From: Chryseobacterium vaccae
Lineage (GTDB): Bacteria; Bacteroidota; Bacteroidia; Flavobacteriales; Weeksellaceae
Reading direction: 5' to 3'
Length of the DNA stretch: 64,000 nucleotides
NCBI RefSeq assembly: GCF_009602705.1
Contig: NZ_VSWH01000001.1
Location: forward strand, 5,009,001-5,073,000
Below, in pieces: positions 45,244-55,498 of the stretch. Both the position numbers and the translations under genes were made by a program. The notes under the pieces are model-generated. The model had not been told where the DNA came from. It saw only the letters and a program-made list of their open reading frames with translations, and did not search any database. The stretch's first letter is position 1, and each line of letters opens with the position of its first letter.

Positions 45244-46812
45244 ATGACAGCAGCCATTATAGCCGGCGTTATTTGCTTAGTTATCGGGGCAGTACTAGGG
45301 ATGTTTTTCTCTAGAAGCTCACTGAATACTAAGGCAAAATTTATTATAGATGATGCAAAGAAAAATGCCGAAAACCTTATAGAAAAAGCAAACGTTCAAG
45401 CTGAATCCATAAAGAAAGAAAAGAATCTTCAGGCCAAAGAAAAATTCTTGGAACTGAAATCACAGCATGATGCAGACATCCAGTCCCGCGAAAAGAAAAT
45501 GCAGGAAGTAGAAAAAAGGACTAAAGACAAAGAGCACAAGCTGAATGACGAATTAAGCAAGACAGGAAAACTTGAAAAAGACCTTGACAAGCAGATCGCA
45601 GATTATGCTAAGAAAAATGAAATCTTAGACAGAAAACAGCAGGAACTGGATATAGCAACCGCTAAAAAAGTGGAAATCCTTGAAAAAATATCCAATTACA
45701 CCGCAGAAGAAGCTAAAGCAGAATTGGTAGAAACCATGAAAGCTGAGGCTAAAACAAGAGCTCAGGCACACGTTCAGGGAATCATGGAGGAAGCTCAGAT
45801 GAACGCCAAGAACGAAGCCAGAAAAATTGTTATCCAGACGATTCAGAGAATCGGAACCGAGCAGGCTATCGAAAATTCAGTATCTGTTTTCAACATTGAA
45901 TCTGATGAAGTAAAAGGTAGAATTATCGGTAGAGAAGGTAGAAATATCCGAGCTTTAGAAGCAGTAACAGGTGTAGAAATTATTGTTGATGATACCCCTG
46001 AAGCCATCCTTCTTTCATGTTTCGATCCGGTAAGAAGAGAGATTGCAAGATTATCCCTTCACAGACTGGTAACGGATGGAAGAATCCACCCGGCAAGAAT
46101 TGAAGAAGTGGTGGAAAAAACAAGAAAACAAATCGAGGAAGAAATTATTGAAGTAGGAAAAAGAACCATTATTGATTTGGGAATCCATGGATTACATCCT
46201 GAATTGATCAAGATTGTAGGTAGAATGAAATACCGTTCTTCTTACGGACAAAACTTACTTCAGCACTCAAGAGAAGTAGCGAATATTGCTGCAACTATGG
46301 CTGCGGAACTAGGACTAAACGTAAAATTAGCCAAAAGAGCAGGTCTTTTACATGATATTGGTAAAGTTCCTGAGCAGGAATCTGAATTACCGCATGCTTT
46401 ATTAGGAATGCAGTGGGCTGAGAAATACGGAGAAAATCCAGAGGTTGTCAACGCAATCGGAGCTCACCACGATGAAATTGAAATGAAATCTCTGTTATCA
46501 CCAATCATCCAGGTAGCTGATGCGATTTCAGGAGCAAGACCGGGAGCAAGAAGACAGGTATTGGAATCTTATATCCAGAGACTGAAAGACCTTGAGTCTG
46601 CAGCATTAAGCTTTGACGGTGTATCCAGCGCTTATGCAATCCAGGCAGGTAGAGAACTGAGAGTAATGGTAGAAAGCGGAAAAGTGAACGATGAAGTAGC
46701 TTCTCAGTTATCTTACGATATCTCAGAAAAGATCCAGAACGAACTTACTTACCCTGGACAGGTGAAAGTAACCGTAATCAGAGAAACAAGAGCTGTGAAT
46801 ATTGCAAGATAA
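45244..46812 (+). CDS. rny: Ribonuclease Y
   Basis: 522 residues. Endonuclease that starts mRNA decay, tethered to the membrane. Seen: N-terminal membrane helix ([20 protein letters not shown]), long coiled coil (about residues 30-200), KH domain ([21 protein letters not shown]) and HD domain ([29 protein letters not shown]). Preceded by the structured RNA region and followed by a strong terminator. Confidence 0.97.
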
Positions 46813-46884: not shown

Positions 46885-48126
46885 ATGCAAGAACTGTCTT
46901 TGTCTTCAAAACTGAAATACATTTTTTCTATTCCCGTCATTATTTCTGCTTTGGGATATTTCGTAGATATTTATGACCTGCTGCTATTCGGGATTGTGAG
47001 AATTCCCAGTTTAAAAGCACTGGGTCTTAATCCGGATACCGATGGAACTTTTATCCTGAACTGTCAAATGGTAGGGCTTCTTATCGGAGGGGTTTTCTGG
47101 GGAATTTTTGGAGATAAAAAAGGAAGGCTTTCTGTGCTTTTTGGTTCTATTTTGGTCTATTCCCTGGCGAATATAGCCTGTGGATTTCTACCTTACTTTC
47201 CTAAAGAGCATTTGGTGTATCAATATGCCGGGTTAAGGTTTATTGCGGGTATCGGACTGGCTGGAGAGCTGGGAGCGGGAATTACCCTTGTTTCTGAAAG
47301 CCTGCCGAAGAATCTCAGAGCAATTGGTACCTCAGTTGTGGCTGGTTTTGGTCTCATGGGGGCAGTAGTGGCTCAATTGACTGTAGAACTGGCCGGAGGG
47401 TGGAATATTTCCTACATTATCGGTGGTATCATGGGAATTTTGCTGCTGCTGTTAAGGATCAGTGTTTCAGAATCAGGAATTTATAAGAATATTGAACATA
47501 AAAATGTCTCGAAAGGAAATTTTCTTTCTTTTTTTACCCATAAAGACCGTCTGATCAGGTACCTGAAATGCATAGCAATAGGGTTGCCTACCTGGTACTG
47601 TATAGGTATTCTTGCTGTTTTAGCCAATCAGTTTGCTCCTGAGTTCGGAATAAAAGATATTAGCCCCGGAAAAGCAATTATGTGGGCTTATGTTGGGATT
47701 TCTGTTGGCGATCTGATGAGCGGCTTTATCTCTCATGCCTTGAAATCACGTAAAATGGCCATATTTTATATGCTGCTTTTCACGGTGGTTGGAGTAGGGA
47801 TCATGCTGTTTGGAAATACTGAGACAGAAACCAAATATTATATCTTCTGCGTATGGCTGGGATTAGGAACCGGGTATTGGGCGATGTTCGTTACTCTGGC
47901 GGCAGAACAGTTCGGAACCAATATCAGAAATACAGCAACCACAACCGTGCCTAATATGGTAAGAGGCTTGGTGCCGGTAATGATTCTGGCCTTTGATCTT
48001 TTAAAGAATAATTTTACGGTAATAATAAGTGCGGCTATAGTAGGAGTTGTTGTTTTTGGACTTGCATTTTATTCTTCATTGACAATTTCTGAGACACATA
48101 ATAAAAATCTAGAATTTATAGAATAA
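46885..48126 (+). CDS. MFS transporter
   Basis: 413 residues, about 12 membrane helices. Major facilitator: loop 2-3 motif FGDKKGRLSVLFGS, helix 4-5 region GIGLAGELGAGITLVSESLPKNLRA, and a second-half counterpart near GYWAMFVTLAAEQFGTN. The E-S-L-P-K pattern and organisation are like metabolite:proton symporters. Substrate unknown. Confidence 0.88.
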   Translation: MQELSLSSKLKYIFSIPVIISALGYFVDIYDLLLFGIVRIPSLKALGLNPDTDGTFILNCQMVGLLIGGVFWGIFGDKKGRLSVLFGSILVYSLANIACGFLPYFPKEHLVYQYAGLRFIAGIGLAGELGAGITLVSESLPKNLRAIGTSVVAGFGLMGAVVAQLTVELAGGWNISYIIGGIMGILLLLLRISVSESGIYKNIEHKNVSKGNFLSFFTHKDRLIRYLKCIAIGLPTWYCIGILAVLANQFAPEFGIKDISPGKAIMWAYVGISVGDLMSGFISHALKSRKMAIFYMLLFTVVGVGIMLFGNTETETKYYIFCVWLGLGTGYWAMFVTLAAEQFGTNIRNTATTTVPNMVRGLVPVMILAFDLLKNNFTVIISAAIVGVVVFGLAFYSSLTISETHNKNLEFIE

Positions 48127-48245
48127 TTTATTCAGTTTAAAAGCTATATTTTTAAAATTTGTTATAATTTTTTATAATTTGTGTAGTAAATTAAACATAT
48201 GGTTATTGTGAATGCTTATTATTGGTTTAATCAATGCGAATTTTA

Positions 48246-48275
48246 TTGTTTTGTGTTTATGATTATTTAGTTTTG
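48246..48275 (+). promoter_or_regulatory. Promoter of GG-leader peptide 1
   Basis: TTG (48246-48248), 19-base spacer, TAGTTTTG (48268-48275), 43 bases before the ATG. Confidence 0.6.
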
Positions 48276-48318
48276 AAATGTAATAAAAAACAAATATTAA
48301 TCTTAAAGCAAAATTATT

Positions 48319-48477
48319 ATGAAAAATGCGAAGAAACTAAAAGCAGCAGATTTGAAAAACATTAAAGGAGGAGCAAGTGGAACTCCAGATTTATCTAAGT
48401 GTTATTGCGTTTGTGGAGGAGTTGTAGGTGGTCCGGAATATTGTGCTGACTATGTGAGTTGCCCACTAGACTTCTAA
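48319..48477 (+). CDS. Double-glycine-leader Cys-rich peptide 1
   Basis: 52 residues. Leader MKNAKKLKAADLKNIKGG, then a core with cysteines at 28, 30, 32, 42 and 48. The leader fits the bacteriocin/natural-product type cut after GG by a peptidase-containing ABC exporter. Shares leader and cysteine spacing (C-x-C-x-C-x9-C-x5-C) with the two genes downstream, but lacks their sixth cysteine. Own promoter and terminator. Modification or activity is unknown; such peptides in Chryseobacterium are usually annotated only as bacteriocin-like. Confidence 0.85.
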   Translation: MKNAKKLKAADLKNIKGGASGTPDLSKCYCVCGGVVGGPEYCADYVSCPLDF

Positions 48478-48541
48478 TCATTATTCTCATGTAGCGATTG
48501 AAAGCTATCCAGATGGAATAGTATTATCAAATTTTATTTGC

Positions 48542-48580
48542 AAATAGCCTTTCGGAATTTCCGGGAGGCTATTTTATTTT
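48542..48580 (+). terminator. Terminator of GG-leader peptide 1
   Basis: AAATAGCCT and AGGCTATTT arms enclose an inner CGGAA/CCG pairing, then TTATTTT. Confidence 0.8.
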
Positions 48581-48676
48581 AATCTTTTGTGCGCGTCACG
48601 GTTTGTTGTGAAAATCGGAATTTAAAGCTGTATAAGTTTAAAATCAGTATATTATTGAGATTTACACTGAATTATG

Positions 48677-48706
48677 TTGCATGTGATTAATATTTGTTTA
48701 ACTTTG
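48677..48706 (+). promoter_or_regulatory. Promoter of GG-leader peptide 2
   Basis: TTG (48677-48679), 19-base spacer, TAACTTTG (48699-48706). The surrounding 80 bases up to the ATG are nearly identical to those before peptide 3. Confidence 0.75.
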
Positions 48707-48755
48707 AAAGACAACTGAATTATATTATTAATCTCCAACCTAAATCACAATCATT

Positions 48756-48926
48756 ATGAAAAACGCTAAAAAACTAACAAAAACAGATCTTAAAAACATT
48801 GTAGGAGGAGTTGGCGGAGTAGCGACTCCCGATCTTTCAAAATGTGGCTGCAGCTGCACAGGAGCGGTAACAGGGCCAACCTACTGCATAAAGTATAAAA
48901 GATGTCTTCAGGTAATGACTTGCTGA
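48756..48926 (+). CDS. Double-glycine-leader Cys-rich peptide 2
   Basis: 56 residues. Leader MKNAKKLTKTDLKNIVGG is identical to that of peptide 3 except for one residue. Core cysteines at 30, 32, 34, 44, 50 and 56 (last residue), giving C-x-C-x-C-x9-C-x5-C-x5-C with TPDLS before and GP.YC in the middle. Small, soluble, no membrane segment. Monocistronic between its own promoter and hairpin terminator. Confidence 0.88.
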   Translation: MKNAKKLTKTDLKNIVGGVGGVATPDLSKCGCSCTGAVTGPTYCIKYKRCLQVMTC

Positions 48927-49256
48927 TATAAAAACATTTCATACAGTAAAACCTTTCAAGAAATTGGAAGGTTTTATTTTTAAAGCTGTCCGGGCTTTTC
49001 TTTACAGGGCAAAACGATAACTTTTTTAACTTTCATTTTAAAATAAAAATAAATATAAACACTTTTAAGAGCTTTAAAAAAGAAGTCCATTATCATTTTC
49101 TTGAACCATTATAATACACTGCTATTTTCAGATATCAAGGCTGTTGAAAGCATCAGGTAATAAAATTGTTTAATAAATATACCGGATTAGAAACTCTTTA
49201 TTATATCAATAATACTAATGATATCAAGCTTTTATTAAATTTTATAATAAATTATG
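48927..49256. other. Spacer between peptide genes 2 and 3
   Basis: After the terminator at 48947-48982 the region is AT-rich and non-coding. No recognised element up to the promoter at 49257. Confidence 0.6.
48947..48982 (+). terminator. Terminator of GG-leader peptide 2
   Basis: AAAACCTTTC..GGAAGGTTTTATTTTT; closely related to the rny terminator. Confidence 0.85.
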
Positions 49257-49286
49257 TTGCGAATAATTAATATTTGTTTAACTTTG
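49257..49286 (+). promoter_or_regulatory. Promoter of GG-leader peptide 3
   Basis: TTG (49257-49259), 19-base spacer, TAACTTTG (49279-49286); duplicate of the peptide 2 promoter. Confidence 0.75.
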
Positions 49287-49336
49287 GAAGGTAACTAAAC
49301 TATATTATTAAATCTCAAAACTAAATCACAACCATT

Positions 49337-49516
49337 ATGAAAAATGCTAAAAAACTAACAAAAACAGATCTTAAAAACATTGCAGGAGGAATAAGCGGAA
49401 AACCTGATTTATCTCTTTGCGGATGCAGTTGCTCAGGTTCTGTAACCGGACCATGGTACTGCGTGCAGTATATCGCCTGTACACAAGGATATAACTGTGG
49501 CGAGGCAGCAATGTAA
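49337..49516 (+). CDS. Double-glycine-leader Cys-rich peptide 3
   Basis: 59 residues. Leader MKNAKKLTKTDLKNIAGG; core KPDLSLCGCSCSGSVTGPWY onward, with cysteines at 28, 30, 32, 42, 48 and 54, the same spacing as peptide 2. It differs in having a five-residue C-terminal tail. Almost certainly a tandem duplicate of peptide 2 with its own control signals. No modifying enzyme or exporter gene is seen beside it. Confidence 0.88.
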   Translation: MKNAKKLTKTDLKNIAGGISGKPDLSLCGCSCSGSVTGPWYCVQYIACTQGYNCGEAAM

Positions 49517-49560
49517 GAATGATTTCAGTTAAGAAATAAACATTTCCACATTTAATATGC

Positions 49561-49591
49561 AAAAGCCTTTCGGATTTCCGGAAGGTTTTTG
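49561..49591 (+). terminator. Terminator of GG-leader peptide 3
   Basis: AAAAGCCTTTCGG and CCGGAAGGTTTTT arms, followed by T and G. Confidence 0.8.
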
Positions 49592-49766
49592 TGCTTTAAG
49601 CTTACAATAATAAGTCCGCTTCATCGAATCAACTGAGTTAATTCCTACCTTTGCCTACTGAAATAAGCAGTATTATAAATGTTTGCGTTCCAAAAAATAG
49701 GTGCAATTTGAATTAATTATAAGTTGATTATTTATCCGGAATAGAGATACTTTCCCATGCATTCCA

Positions 49767-50702
49767 CTAAAAAATAATATAAAGCAAACTTCCTATGCTG
49801 ATTACGATCCATAAGATAACAGCCATTGCCAATGGTTTAATTCCAATCGTTTTTAAAGTCTGTATCGAAAGAGTAGAACCAATAAAAAATAAAGTCAGAT
49901 TCAGTCCGGATTTGGCGAGTGAAGTTATACTGCTGCTGAAACGTTCAAAGACAGGAAAATAAGTATTCAGAAGAATAGCAAGAACAAACCATCCGATAAA
50001 CCATGGAATTTTAATTTTAGACTCATTGTTTTTGAAAATAAACATGGTAATCACAGAGACCGGAATAATCCATAGCGCACGGGCCAGCTTTACCGTTGTA
50101 GCAGTTTTTAAGGCTTCAAATCCGTATTTTCCGGCAGCACCCACTACAGAGCTGGTATCATGAATTCCTACTGCACACCACAATCCAAACTGCTCCTGTG
50201 AAAGATCAAGCATATGCCCGATAGCGGGATAGATAAATAAAGCGATAGAATTTAAAGTAAAAATGATGGCAAGCCCCAACGATATTTCTTTGCTATCTGG
50301 TCTTATGATAGGAGAGACGGCTGCAATGGCACTTCCTCCGCAGATTGCTGTTCCGGCGGAAATCAGATAAGAAAGTTTCTTCTCCAGCTTAAATACCCGT
50401 CCCAGAAAATATCCCAGTACCATAACGGTTATAATACTCATTACAGTTAAAAGAAAACCAGATTTCCCGGCTTGTAAAGCTTCATCAAGTTTAAGTCCGA
50501 AACCCAAGCCGACAATGGAAACCTGAAGAAGCAAATGAATATATTGATGAAGATGCTTCTCAAATGGATTTCCAATAAGAACAACTAAAACAAACCCGGA
50601 TGCTAAAGCGATCGGTGAAGAAACCCATGGTGTGAGACAAAAAACAGCAAAAATGATAAAAATTATTTTACGTAACGCGTTGTTTTGGATGAAATCTTTC
50701 AT
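49767..50702 (-). CDS. YeiH-family putative sulfate exporter
   Basis: 311 residues from the ATG at 50702 (an ATG at 50729 adds nine residues). About ten membrane helices. Family segments: LLQVSIVGLGFGLKLDEAL, GTAICGGSAIAAVSPIIRPD, and WCAVGIHDTSSVVGAAGKYG, the last strongly conserved in the YeiH/DUF340-like group proposed to export sulfate or sulfonates. The gene is downstream of a LysR regulator in the same direction, the usual YeiE-YeiH arrangement. Confidence 0.88.
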   Translation of the reverse strand: MKDFIQNNALRKIIFIIFAVFCLTPWVSSPIALASGFVLVVLIGNPFEKHLHQYIHLLLQVSIVGLGFGLKLDEALQAGKSGFLLTVMSIITVMVLGYFLGRVFKLEKKLSYLISAGTAICGGSAIAAVSPIIRPDSKEISLGLAIIFTLNSIALFIYPAIGHMLDLSQEQFGLWCAVGIHDTSSVVGAAGKYGFEALKTATTVKLARALWIIPVSVITMFIFKNNESKIKIPWFIGWFVLAILLNTYFPVFERFSSSITSLAKSGLNLTLFFIGSTLSIQTLKTIGIKPLAMAVILWIVISIGSLLYIIF

Positions 50703-55309: not shown

Positions 55310-55498
55310 ATGAATAAAAACATTTTTAAAGCCCAAAAACTAGGCCGGCCAGCATTAAAAGAAATTAGCGGTGGTGGAAAAGTAATTGTAGTCAACTGCT
55401 ATACGCTTTGTGGTGAAGCCGGAGGAGTAGTTTCAAATCATCCCGGAAGAGGGGATATGTGTACCCCGGACAGGTCACTCTGTTGCTATTGCAGATAA
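55310..55498 (+). CDS. GG-leader Cys-rich peptide 4 (unrelated core)
   Basis: 62 residues. Leader ends in LKEISGGG, a double-glycine leader of the LGRxxLKxIxGG type. Core GKVIVVNCYTLC.. to LCCYCR has six cysteines (30, 34, 51, 58, 59, 61) in a spacing unlike peptides 1-3. No promoter box recognised. Terminator follows at 55509. Function unknown; likely an exported peptide. Confidence 0.75.
   Translation: MNKNIFKAQKLGRPALKEISGGGKVIVVNCYTLCGEAGGVVSNHPGRGDMCTPDRSLCCYCR

Follow-up and report, generated by a model that had tools for sequence, protein, structure and literature searches.

An array of three cysteine-rich GG-leader peptide genes, of a family conserved in most Chryseobacterium genomes, and its candidate C39-ABC exporter

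The peptide genes and their products

Three adjacent open reading frames of 52, 56 and 59 amino acids lie on the forward strand of the window, by which we mean the whole 64,000-nucleotide stretch of Chryseobacterium vaccae contig NZ_VSWH01000001.1 that was analysed (Table 1). Their translations confirm them as genes for GG-leader peptides with nearly identical leaders, as the preliminary description of this DNA had proposed. The leader (K-N-A-K-K-L...D-L-K-N-I-x-GG) is 18 amino acids long including the GG; it is identical in peptides 2 and 3 up to the residue preceding GG, and differs at three positions in peptide 1 (KAA for TKT). In all three peptides the GG site closes the conserved leader, as in GG peptides exported by C39 transporters. 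PDLS and GPxYC are present in each core, as already reported. The six-cysteine scaffold described for the array holds in its spacing (C-x-C-x-C-x9-C-x5-C in all three) and in its cysteine number for peptides 2 and 3, but peptide 1 lacks the sixth cysteine.

Table 1. Features of the array, its most constant neighbour and the C39 domain-encoding places of the genome
Feature	Position	Strand	Remarks
RNase Y-like gene (presumably rny)	45244..46812	+	most constant upstream neighbour; used as synteny anchor only
Promoter, peptide 1	48246..48275	+	TTG-N19-TAGTTTTG; read from sequence
Peptide 1 gene	48319..48477	+	52 aa, 5 Cys; predicted mature peptide 34 aa, net charge -3
Intrinsic terminator, peptide 1	48542..48574	+	fold -20.7 kcal/mol, z -5.25
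Extended conserved promoter block, peptide 2	48639..48706	+	TTG-N19-TAnnTTTG at 48677-48706 (TTG 48677-48679, TAACTTTG 48699-48706); weight-matrix score 55.4-56.6
Peptide 2 gene	48756..48926	+	56 aa, 6 Cys; predicted mature peptide 38 aa, net charge +3
Intrinsic terminator, peptide 2	48945..48978	+	fold -16.0 kcal/mol, z -5.73
Extended conserved promoter block, peptide 3	49219..49286	+	TTG-N19-TAnnTTTG at 49257-49286 (TTG 49257-49259, TAACTTTG 49279-49286); weight-matrix score 58.6-61.6
Peptide 3 gene	49337..49516	+	59 aa, 6 Cys; predicted mature peptide 41 aa, net charge -1
Intrinsic terminator, peptide 3	49559..49592	+	fold -21.4 kcal/mol, z -6.28
Candidate exporter cassette (L004)	4.06 Mb, about 1 Mb from the array (5.06 Mb)		521-aa VKOR-thioredoxin protein, two leader_Chryseo peptides, 730-aa C39-ABC protein, 432-aa HlyD protein
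Second C39-ABC exporter locus	L005:4224-13715		flanked by genes for an outer-membrane beta-barrel protein and for a Por-secretion-tail protein
Third C39 place	L006:7253-10816		lone C39 domain, 242 aa, adjoining a 732-aa protein

For comparison across the genus, loci were seeded with two motif patterns and then with a cysteine-spacing expression. The best 80 of 134 confirmed candidates in named genomes gave 79 loci, which together with the window hold 107 copies. Both the leader and the cysteine spacing are kept in these homologues. Six cysteines are found in 104 of the 107 copies, and this sixth cysteine was not required by the selection pattern; the three five-cysteine copies are peptide 1 and one copy each in loci L087 and L122. 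The residues between the cysteines had been thought to vary, which is true of the residue preceding Y and of those between the fourth and fifth cysteines. Otherwise they are mostly conserved across the genus: in a column count of 106 copies (one with a different spacing was left out), the G, V, G and P of C-x-G-x-V-x-G-P are found in all 106, a figure that is inflated since the seeding patterns contain part of the motif and copies were picked by cysteine spacing, which also makes the invariance of cysteines 1 to 5 a matter of construction.

The closest family model is NCBIfam NF047798 (leader_Chryseo, “bacteriocin-like protein”, cut-off 23.5 bits), which peptide 3 narrowly exceeds with 23.7 bits, while peptides 2 (22.4) and 1 (14.1) fall below. 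The array peptides are probably secreted, GG-cleaved and disulphide-bonded, and of the class that NCBI names bacteriocin-like. No Pfam model reaches its cut-off for any of the three; Bacteriocin_IIc (PF10439, gathering cut-off 27.1) matches peptide 2 with 15.1 bits and peptide 3 with 16.1, and has no match listed for peptide 1. A search of PDB sequences found no relative, and an RNA family search of positions 47500-50500 found no family. Carriage as cargo of a mobile element or phage was rejected, there being no relative of peptide 3 (the only query) in plasmid and phage records and no relative in viral contigs. Among the literature matches listed, consisting of titles and abstract openings with few subscription journals covered, we recognised no description of the family.

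Other leader peptides are encoded in the same genome. The window itself holds a fourth GG-leader open reading frame with six cysteines (55310-55498, forward strand, 62 amino acids), whose core is unrelated and whose leader differs (QKLGRPALKEISGGG), and which has no NCBIfam match at E≤0.1. At approximately 979-983 kb (L036/L219) there is a graspetide-type locus, with a TIGR04193 maturase (322 bits) beside two KGG precursors.

Promoters and terminators

Upstream of each gene is a TTG-N19-TAnnTTTG motif, and downstream a hairpin that precedes a T-rich stretch. None of 200 shuffles folds as well for any of the three hairpins, the first of which is the only one reported by a simple consensus terminator scan. 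Across the 107 copies, TTG and TAnnTTTG separated by 17-21 nucleotides are found upstream of 69 (mean of 1.7 in shuffles, and none in downstream DNA), with the N19 spacing in 51 and TAnnTTTG alone in 94, and a stem with a T-run lies 3' of 100, compared to 4 in one shuffle. The motif sites, folding, shuffles and counts together bear out the suggestion that each gene has a promoter and terminator of its own. In Flavobacterium psychrophilum, the main sigma factor has TAnnTTTG as its -7 box, according to the excerpted text of PMC9723704.

Conservation extends beyond the promoter motif itself. When 94 of the 107 copies are anchored on the -7 box and reduced to 55 rows, it amounts to 0.67 bit per position in the nearest 16 upstream nucleotides, 0.50 in the preceding 24 and 0.17 in the 120 beyond (a higher figure, 0.94 bit for the last 24 nucleotides, contains the fixed letters of the anchor). 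A weight matrix of this block, built without the window copies, scores 55.4 at peptide 2, 61.6 at peptide 3 and 9.6 at the best other site in the whole window; a second matrix scan gives 56.6 and 58.6 for the two peptides. The extended block was not found at peptide 1, which is absent from the best 10 and the best 4 window sites of two matrix scans. The upstream DNA of peptides 2 and 3 is 81-82% alike over 100 nucleotides, in agreement with their description as near copies.

We considered whether the block is common to other leader peptides or to the exporter genes described below, and rejected this: of 30 leader-peptide stretches fetched (L007-L036), two hold the array itself, and none of the remaining 28, some of which overlap, nor the exporter locus L004 nor L005 has a site that scores above 0. 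The block is not universal even within the family, since scores of no more than 12.1, close to that of the best unrelated site in the window, are obtained for 12 of the 52 training rows. A dedicated regulator could account for the conserved spacer, as could descent alone.

Distribution, age and selection

A family profile of 65 rows matches 135 of 148 Chryseobacterium genomes (E≤1e-8), with one to three matches in each. In a sample of 197 genomes at the family level, the 46 that match at E≤1e-5 are all Chryseobacterium and none belongs to the other 32 genera; the 151 without a match include at least four Chryseobacterium among those listed. The chromosomal place is also constant. The flanking genes resemble, on our reading of their sequences, MFS, YeiH, LysR and ClC genes; at least one conserved flank is kept in all 79 loci, with rny upstream in 75 and the MFS-like gene in 69. 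One array-negative genome, G029, keeps the promoter block between the MFS- and ClC-like genes (score 35.4, L202:3246-3420), followed by an apparent decayed leader-like stretch and no open peptide gene, which points to loss of the array. Eleven of the other 12 array-negative genomes were scanned for the block, and none scores above 8.6; this is weak evidence of absence, since array-bearing G142 scores only 6.1.

The array had been described as an expanding family, which we do not find. Most loci are single-copy (57 of 79, with two copies in 19 and three in 3), and each coding sequence of the window pairs best with the gene at the corresponding position in L087 and in L122. The three genes therefore appear to be old paralogues, and recent tandem expansion was rejected. 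The upstream DNA of peptide 2 gives a different signal: it is 82% alike with that of peptide 3, slightly more than with the corresponding stretches of L087 (80%) and L122 (64%). The promoters of peptides 2 and 3 may thus have been homogenised, against a simple picture of old paralogues.

The peptides are under strong purifying selection. Median dN/dS, taken over pairs with dS of 0.1-1.5, is 0.07 for the core of type 2 (12 copies), 0.13 for that of type 3 (74 copies), 0.13 for the other 20 and 0.145 for all 106; with a leader median of 0.16, the core is as strongly constrained as the leader. Of 62 homologue clusters of peptide 2, a number that takes in the array paralogues, 59 are non-self, compared to 3 of 5 and 3 of 4 for two other leader peptides of the same genome, a small control. 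By far the most conserved of these three is the array, whose genus-wide conservation appears to be unusual relative to the two other leader-peptide cores compared.

A candidate exporter locus

No modification enzyme adjoins the array, and the preliminary description had predicted a C39-peptidase ABC exporter elsewhere in the genome. A genome search found three places that encode a C39 domain (Table 1), among them a cassette about 1 Mb away. Because of the two further C39 places, the cognate exporter has to be inferred; the cassette at 4.06 Mb is the likely one. The second place, L005, also encodes a 437-aa protein that matches no Pfam or NCBIfam family. At the third, the 732-aa protein has a Tox-MPTase4 C-terminus barely over the cut-off, and with the lone C39 domain possibly forms a processing pair. 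At E≤1, leader_Chryseo matches the source genome 36 times, and 21 of these matches exceed the cut-off; Chryseobacterium genomes in general have 0-48 matches at E≤1e-3.

The exporter is matched (E reported as 0) in 139 of the 148 genomes, 138 of which have a copy of at least 89% identity among the matches listed; the copy in G088 is 90% identical over residues 96-730. An exporter orthologue is found in 134 of 135 array-bearing genomes. The exception, G063, is a 75%-complete assembly in which the exporter is broken into four pieces that lie in different frames and show 91-94% identity. Eight genomes (G011, G057, G060, G079, G098, G104, G115 and G140) have neither the exporter nor the array (E≤1e-8) nor any leader_Chryseo match (E≤1e-3), and five keep the exporter without the array. 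The resulting table (both 134, array only 1, exporter only 5, neither 8) gives a Fisher p of 2.4e-9, or 2.7e-10 if G063 is counted as exporter-positive (135/0/5/8), and that of leaders and exporter (135/1/4/8) gives 9.2e-10, all of these tests ignoring descent.

Descent was taken into account with an rny tree of 31 genomes, i.e. that of the window and 30 of the 148 (all 13 array-negative genomes, G142 and 16 hand-picked array-positive ones), the same 30 being used in three further genome searches. On this tree there are five supported independent pairs for array and exporter, of which three agree, two show no difference and none opposes (p = 0.25). The link between array and exporter is consistent over several losses, and with so few independent events it is not proven.

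The VKOR-thioredoxin protein (E≤1e-20) gives the same counts as the exporter, with G142 as the exception, and 2.8 of 4 pairs on the rny tree agree with none opposing. Its matches in array-negative G053, G067 and G088 are distant or partial (25-46% identity). G142 carries the array, the HlyD protein and an exporter of 92% identity, and has no match to NF047798 (E≤1e-3) or to the VKOR protein. The earlier view that maturation must be encoded elsewhere is therefore plausible in the form of oxidation by the VKOR-thioredoxin protein, but this protein is not strictly required, since array-bearing G142 does without a match to it.

In G053 (L215:11613-13262), the neighbours of the conserved exporter include a distant relative of VKOR (25%) and another kind of GG peptide, which carries a WCCDSC motif, as if the exporter had been re-used for another cargo.

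Proposed mechanism and possible roles

Each array gene would be transcribed separately and translated, after which the leader would dock on the C39 domain and be cut after GG, and the peptide would be exported through the C39-ABC protein with its HlyD partner. In the periplasm, the VKOR-thioredoxin protein would probably assist in joining the cysteines by oxidation into disulphides. The same exporter may be a hub for about two dozen leader peptides scattered over the genome. The genes, their conservation and chromosomal place, the control signals and the co-absence with the exporter are results of the analysis, while the steps from translation onwards, cleavage, export and disulphides among them, are inferred from what is generally known of C39 exporters and from the example of the bacteroidetocins. 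As for function, the near fixity of the mature peptide across the genus would imply a target that is itself conserved and belongs to Chryseobacterium, whether in signalling, in the envelope or outside the cell, and would fit less well with a weapon that diversifies fast. A fixed locus and a near-fixed core in most of the genus suggest a self-directed, kin-directed or envelope role, the first two of which are speculative. To the whole of this reading, from separate transcription through export by the distant cassette and VKOR-aided disulphide formation to such a role, we give a probability of about one half.

Only slightly less likely, if still the minority choice, is a role as a bacteriocin that acts on a conserved target. 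The peptides would then be weapons of narrow, within-phylum range, secreted against an essential and conserved envelope target of relatives, and because of such a target the core would be fixed and an immunity gene unneeded; the purifying selection is compatible with this too. NCBI's name for the leader family points the same way, as does the similar gene logic at L004. The bacteroidetocins set a precedent, as they combine GG leaders and cysteines with a C39 ABC transporter and an oxidoreductase for thiols, and inhibit their producers too (excerpts of PMC6671954). They show that a bacteriocin can do without an immunity gene, and BamA is named as their target in a later paper (PMC8546649). However, near-universal presence at one fixed locus is unusual for a weapon, the exporter genes are not adjacent to the array, and 70 of the 107 mature peptides have a predicted net negative charge.

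It is possible, and rather improbable beside a self-directed or bacteriocin role, that the exported peptide binds metal, e.g. copper or zinc, through C-x-C-x-C, or acts as a redox-binding peptide. The conservation of C-x-C-x-C would suit this, and the five-cysteine versions in three genomes mean that not all cysteines need pairing, while the fixed non-cysteine residues (VTGPxYC) exceed the needs of a chelator and the VKOR-thioredoxin protein encoded with the exporter points to oxidation. That the peptides are substrates of a radical SAM or ATP-grasp enzyme instead of simple disulphide peptides is very unlikely. In its favour, their leaders match the model of rSAM-modified GG peptides (TIGR04149), if weakly and below its cut-off of 25 bits (13.3, 19.0 and 16.5 for peptides 1 to 3). 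Against it, a genome search at E≤1e-3 found no SPASM-type maturase near the array and only two distant SPASM places (0.98 and 4.36 Mb), and the one examined encodes a grasp-with-SPASM maturase (TIGR04193) beside distinct precursors of its own.

Within the self-, kin- or envelope-directed reading, we tentatively suggest a more specific picture, itself a doubtful one: the array may encode an extracellular peptide that defines the genus, either as a signal among kin or as a factor of the envelope, with its own conserved promoter module. It would be the conserved client of a general C39-ABC/HlyD/VKOR hub, whose other clients would be leader peptides of patchy occurrence, with as many as 48 matches in one genome. 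“Bacteriocin-like” leader peptides are abundant in Chryseobacterium and are not known to have a role. As the array family is held across most of the genus, one knockout or synthetic peptide could reveal the role of at least one of them, and the co-absence described above ties the scattered set to one export locus. Were the peptide a signal, it would be one shared by most of a genus in a Gram-negative phylum, and few such signals are known to have been described.

Comparison with known systems

Nearest among known systems are the leader_Chryseo peptides (NF047798), which have the same leader sequence and GG site, with peptide 3 scoring above the cut-off of their model and peptides 2 and 1 below it; the array differs in a core whose conservation spans the genus, which is not so for the two other cores compared.

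The class IIf bacteroidetocins, as far as the excerpted text of PMC6671954 describes them, resemble the array in their GG leader, cysteines and small mature peptide, and in genomes with genes for a C39 ABC transporter and for a thiol oxidoreductase. Their leaders of 15-16 amino acids ending in GG are shorter than the array's 18. Compared by description, bacteroidetocins A and B have four cysteines in similar positions and the wider set at least two, while the array peptides have six or five. Genes for a transmembrane protein, an ABC transporter/peptidase and mostly a thiol oxidoreductase lie near those of the bacteroidetocins, whereas the array's likely exporter is about 1 Mb off, and a genus-fixed chromosomal locus is a feature of the array, unlike bacteroidetocins. 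According to the same excerpts, toxin activity was attenuated when the thiol oxidoreductase had been deleted, the fragments detected by mass spectrometry accounted for most of the mature peptides, and a change in migration after reduction was read as an indication of disulphides. Chryseobacterium is not mentioned in the main text of that paper.

Chryseoviridin and other graspetides of Chryseobacterium (PMC8939145, in part) are likewise leader peptides of this genus with tandem precursor genes, many with GG; the array differs from them in its cysteine-rich core and in its distance from the SPASM places of the genome. Finally, in the portion of PMC7018657 drawn on here, the C39-ABC exporters of the pneumococcal Rtg system process GG peptides with signalling or competitive roles, as proposed here. 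Rtg is a Gram-positive system, whereas in Chryseobacterium the peptides are scattered, and the candidate exporter comes with an HlyD partner and a VKOR-thioredoxin protein.
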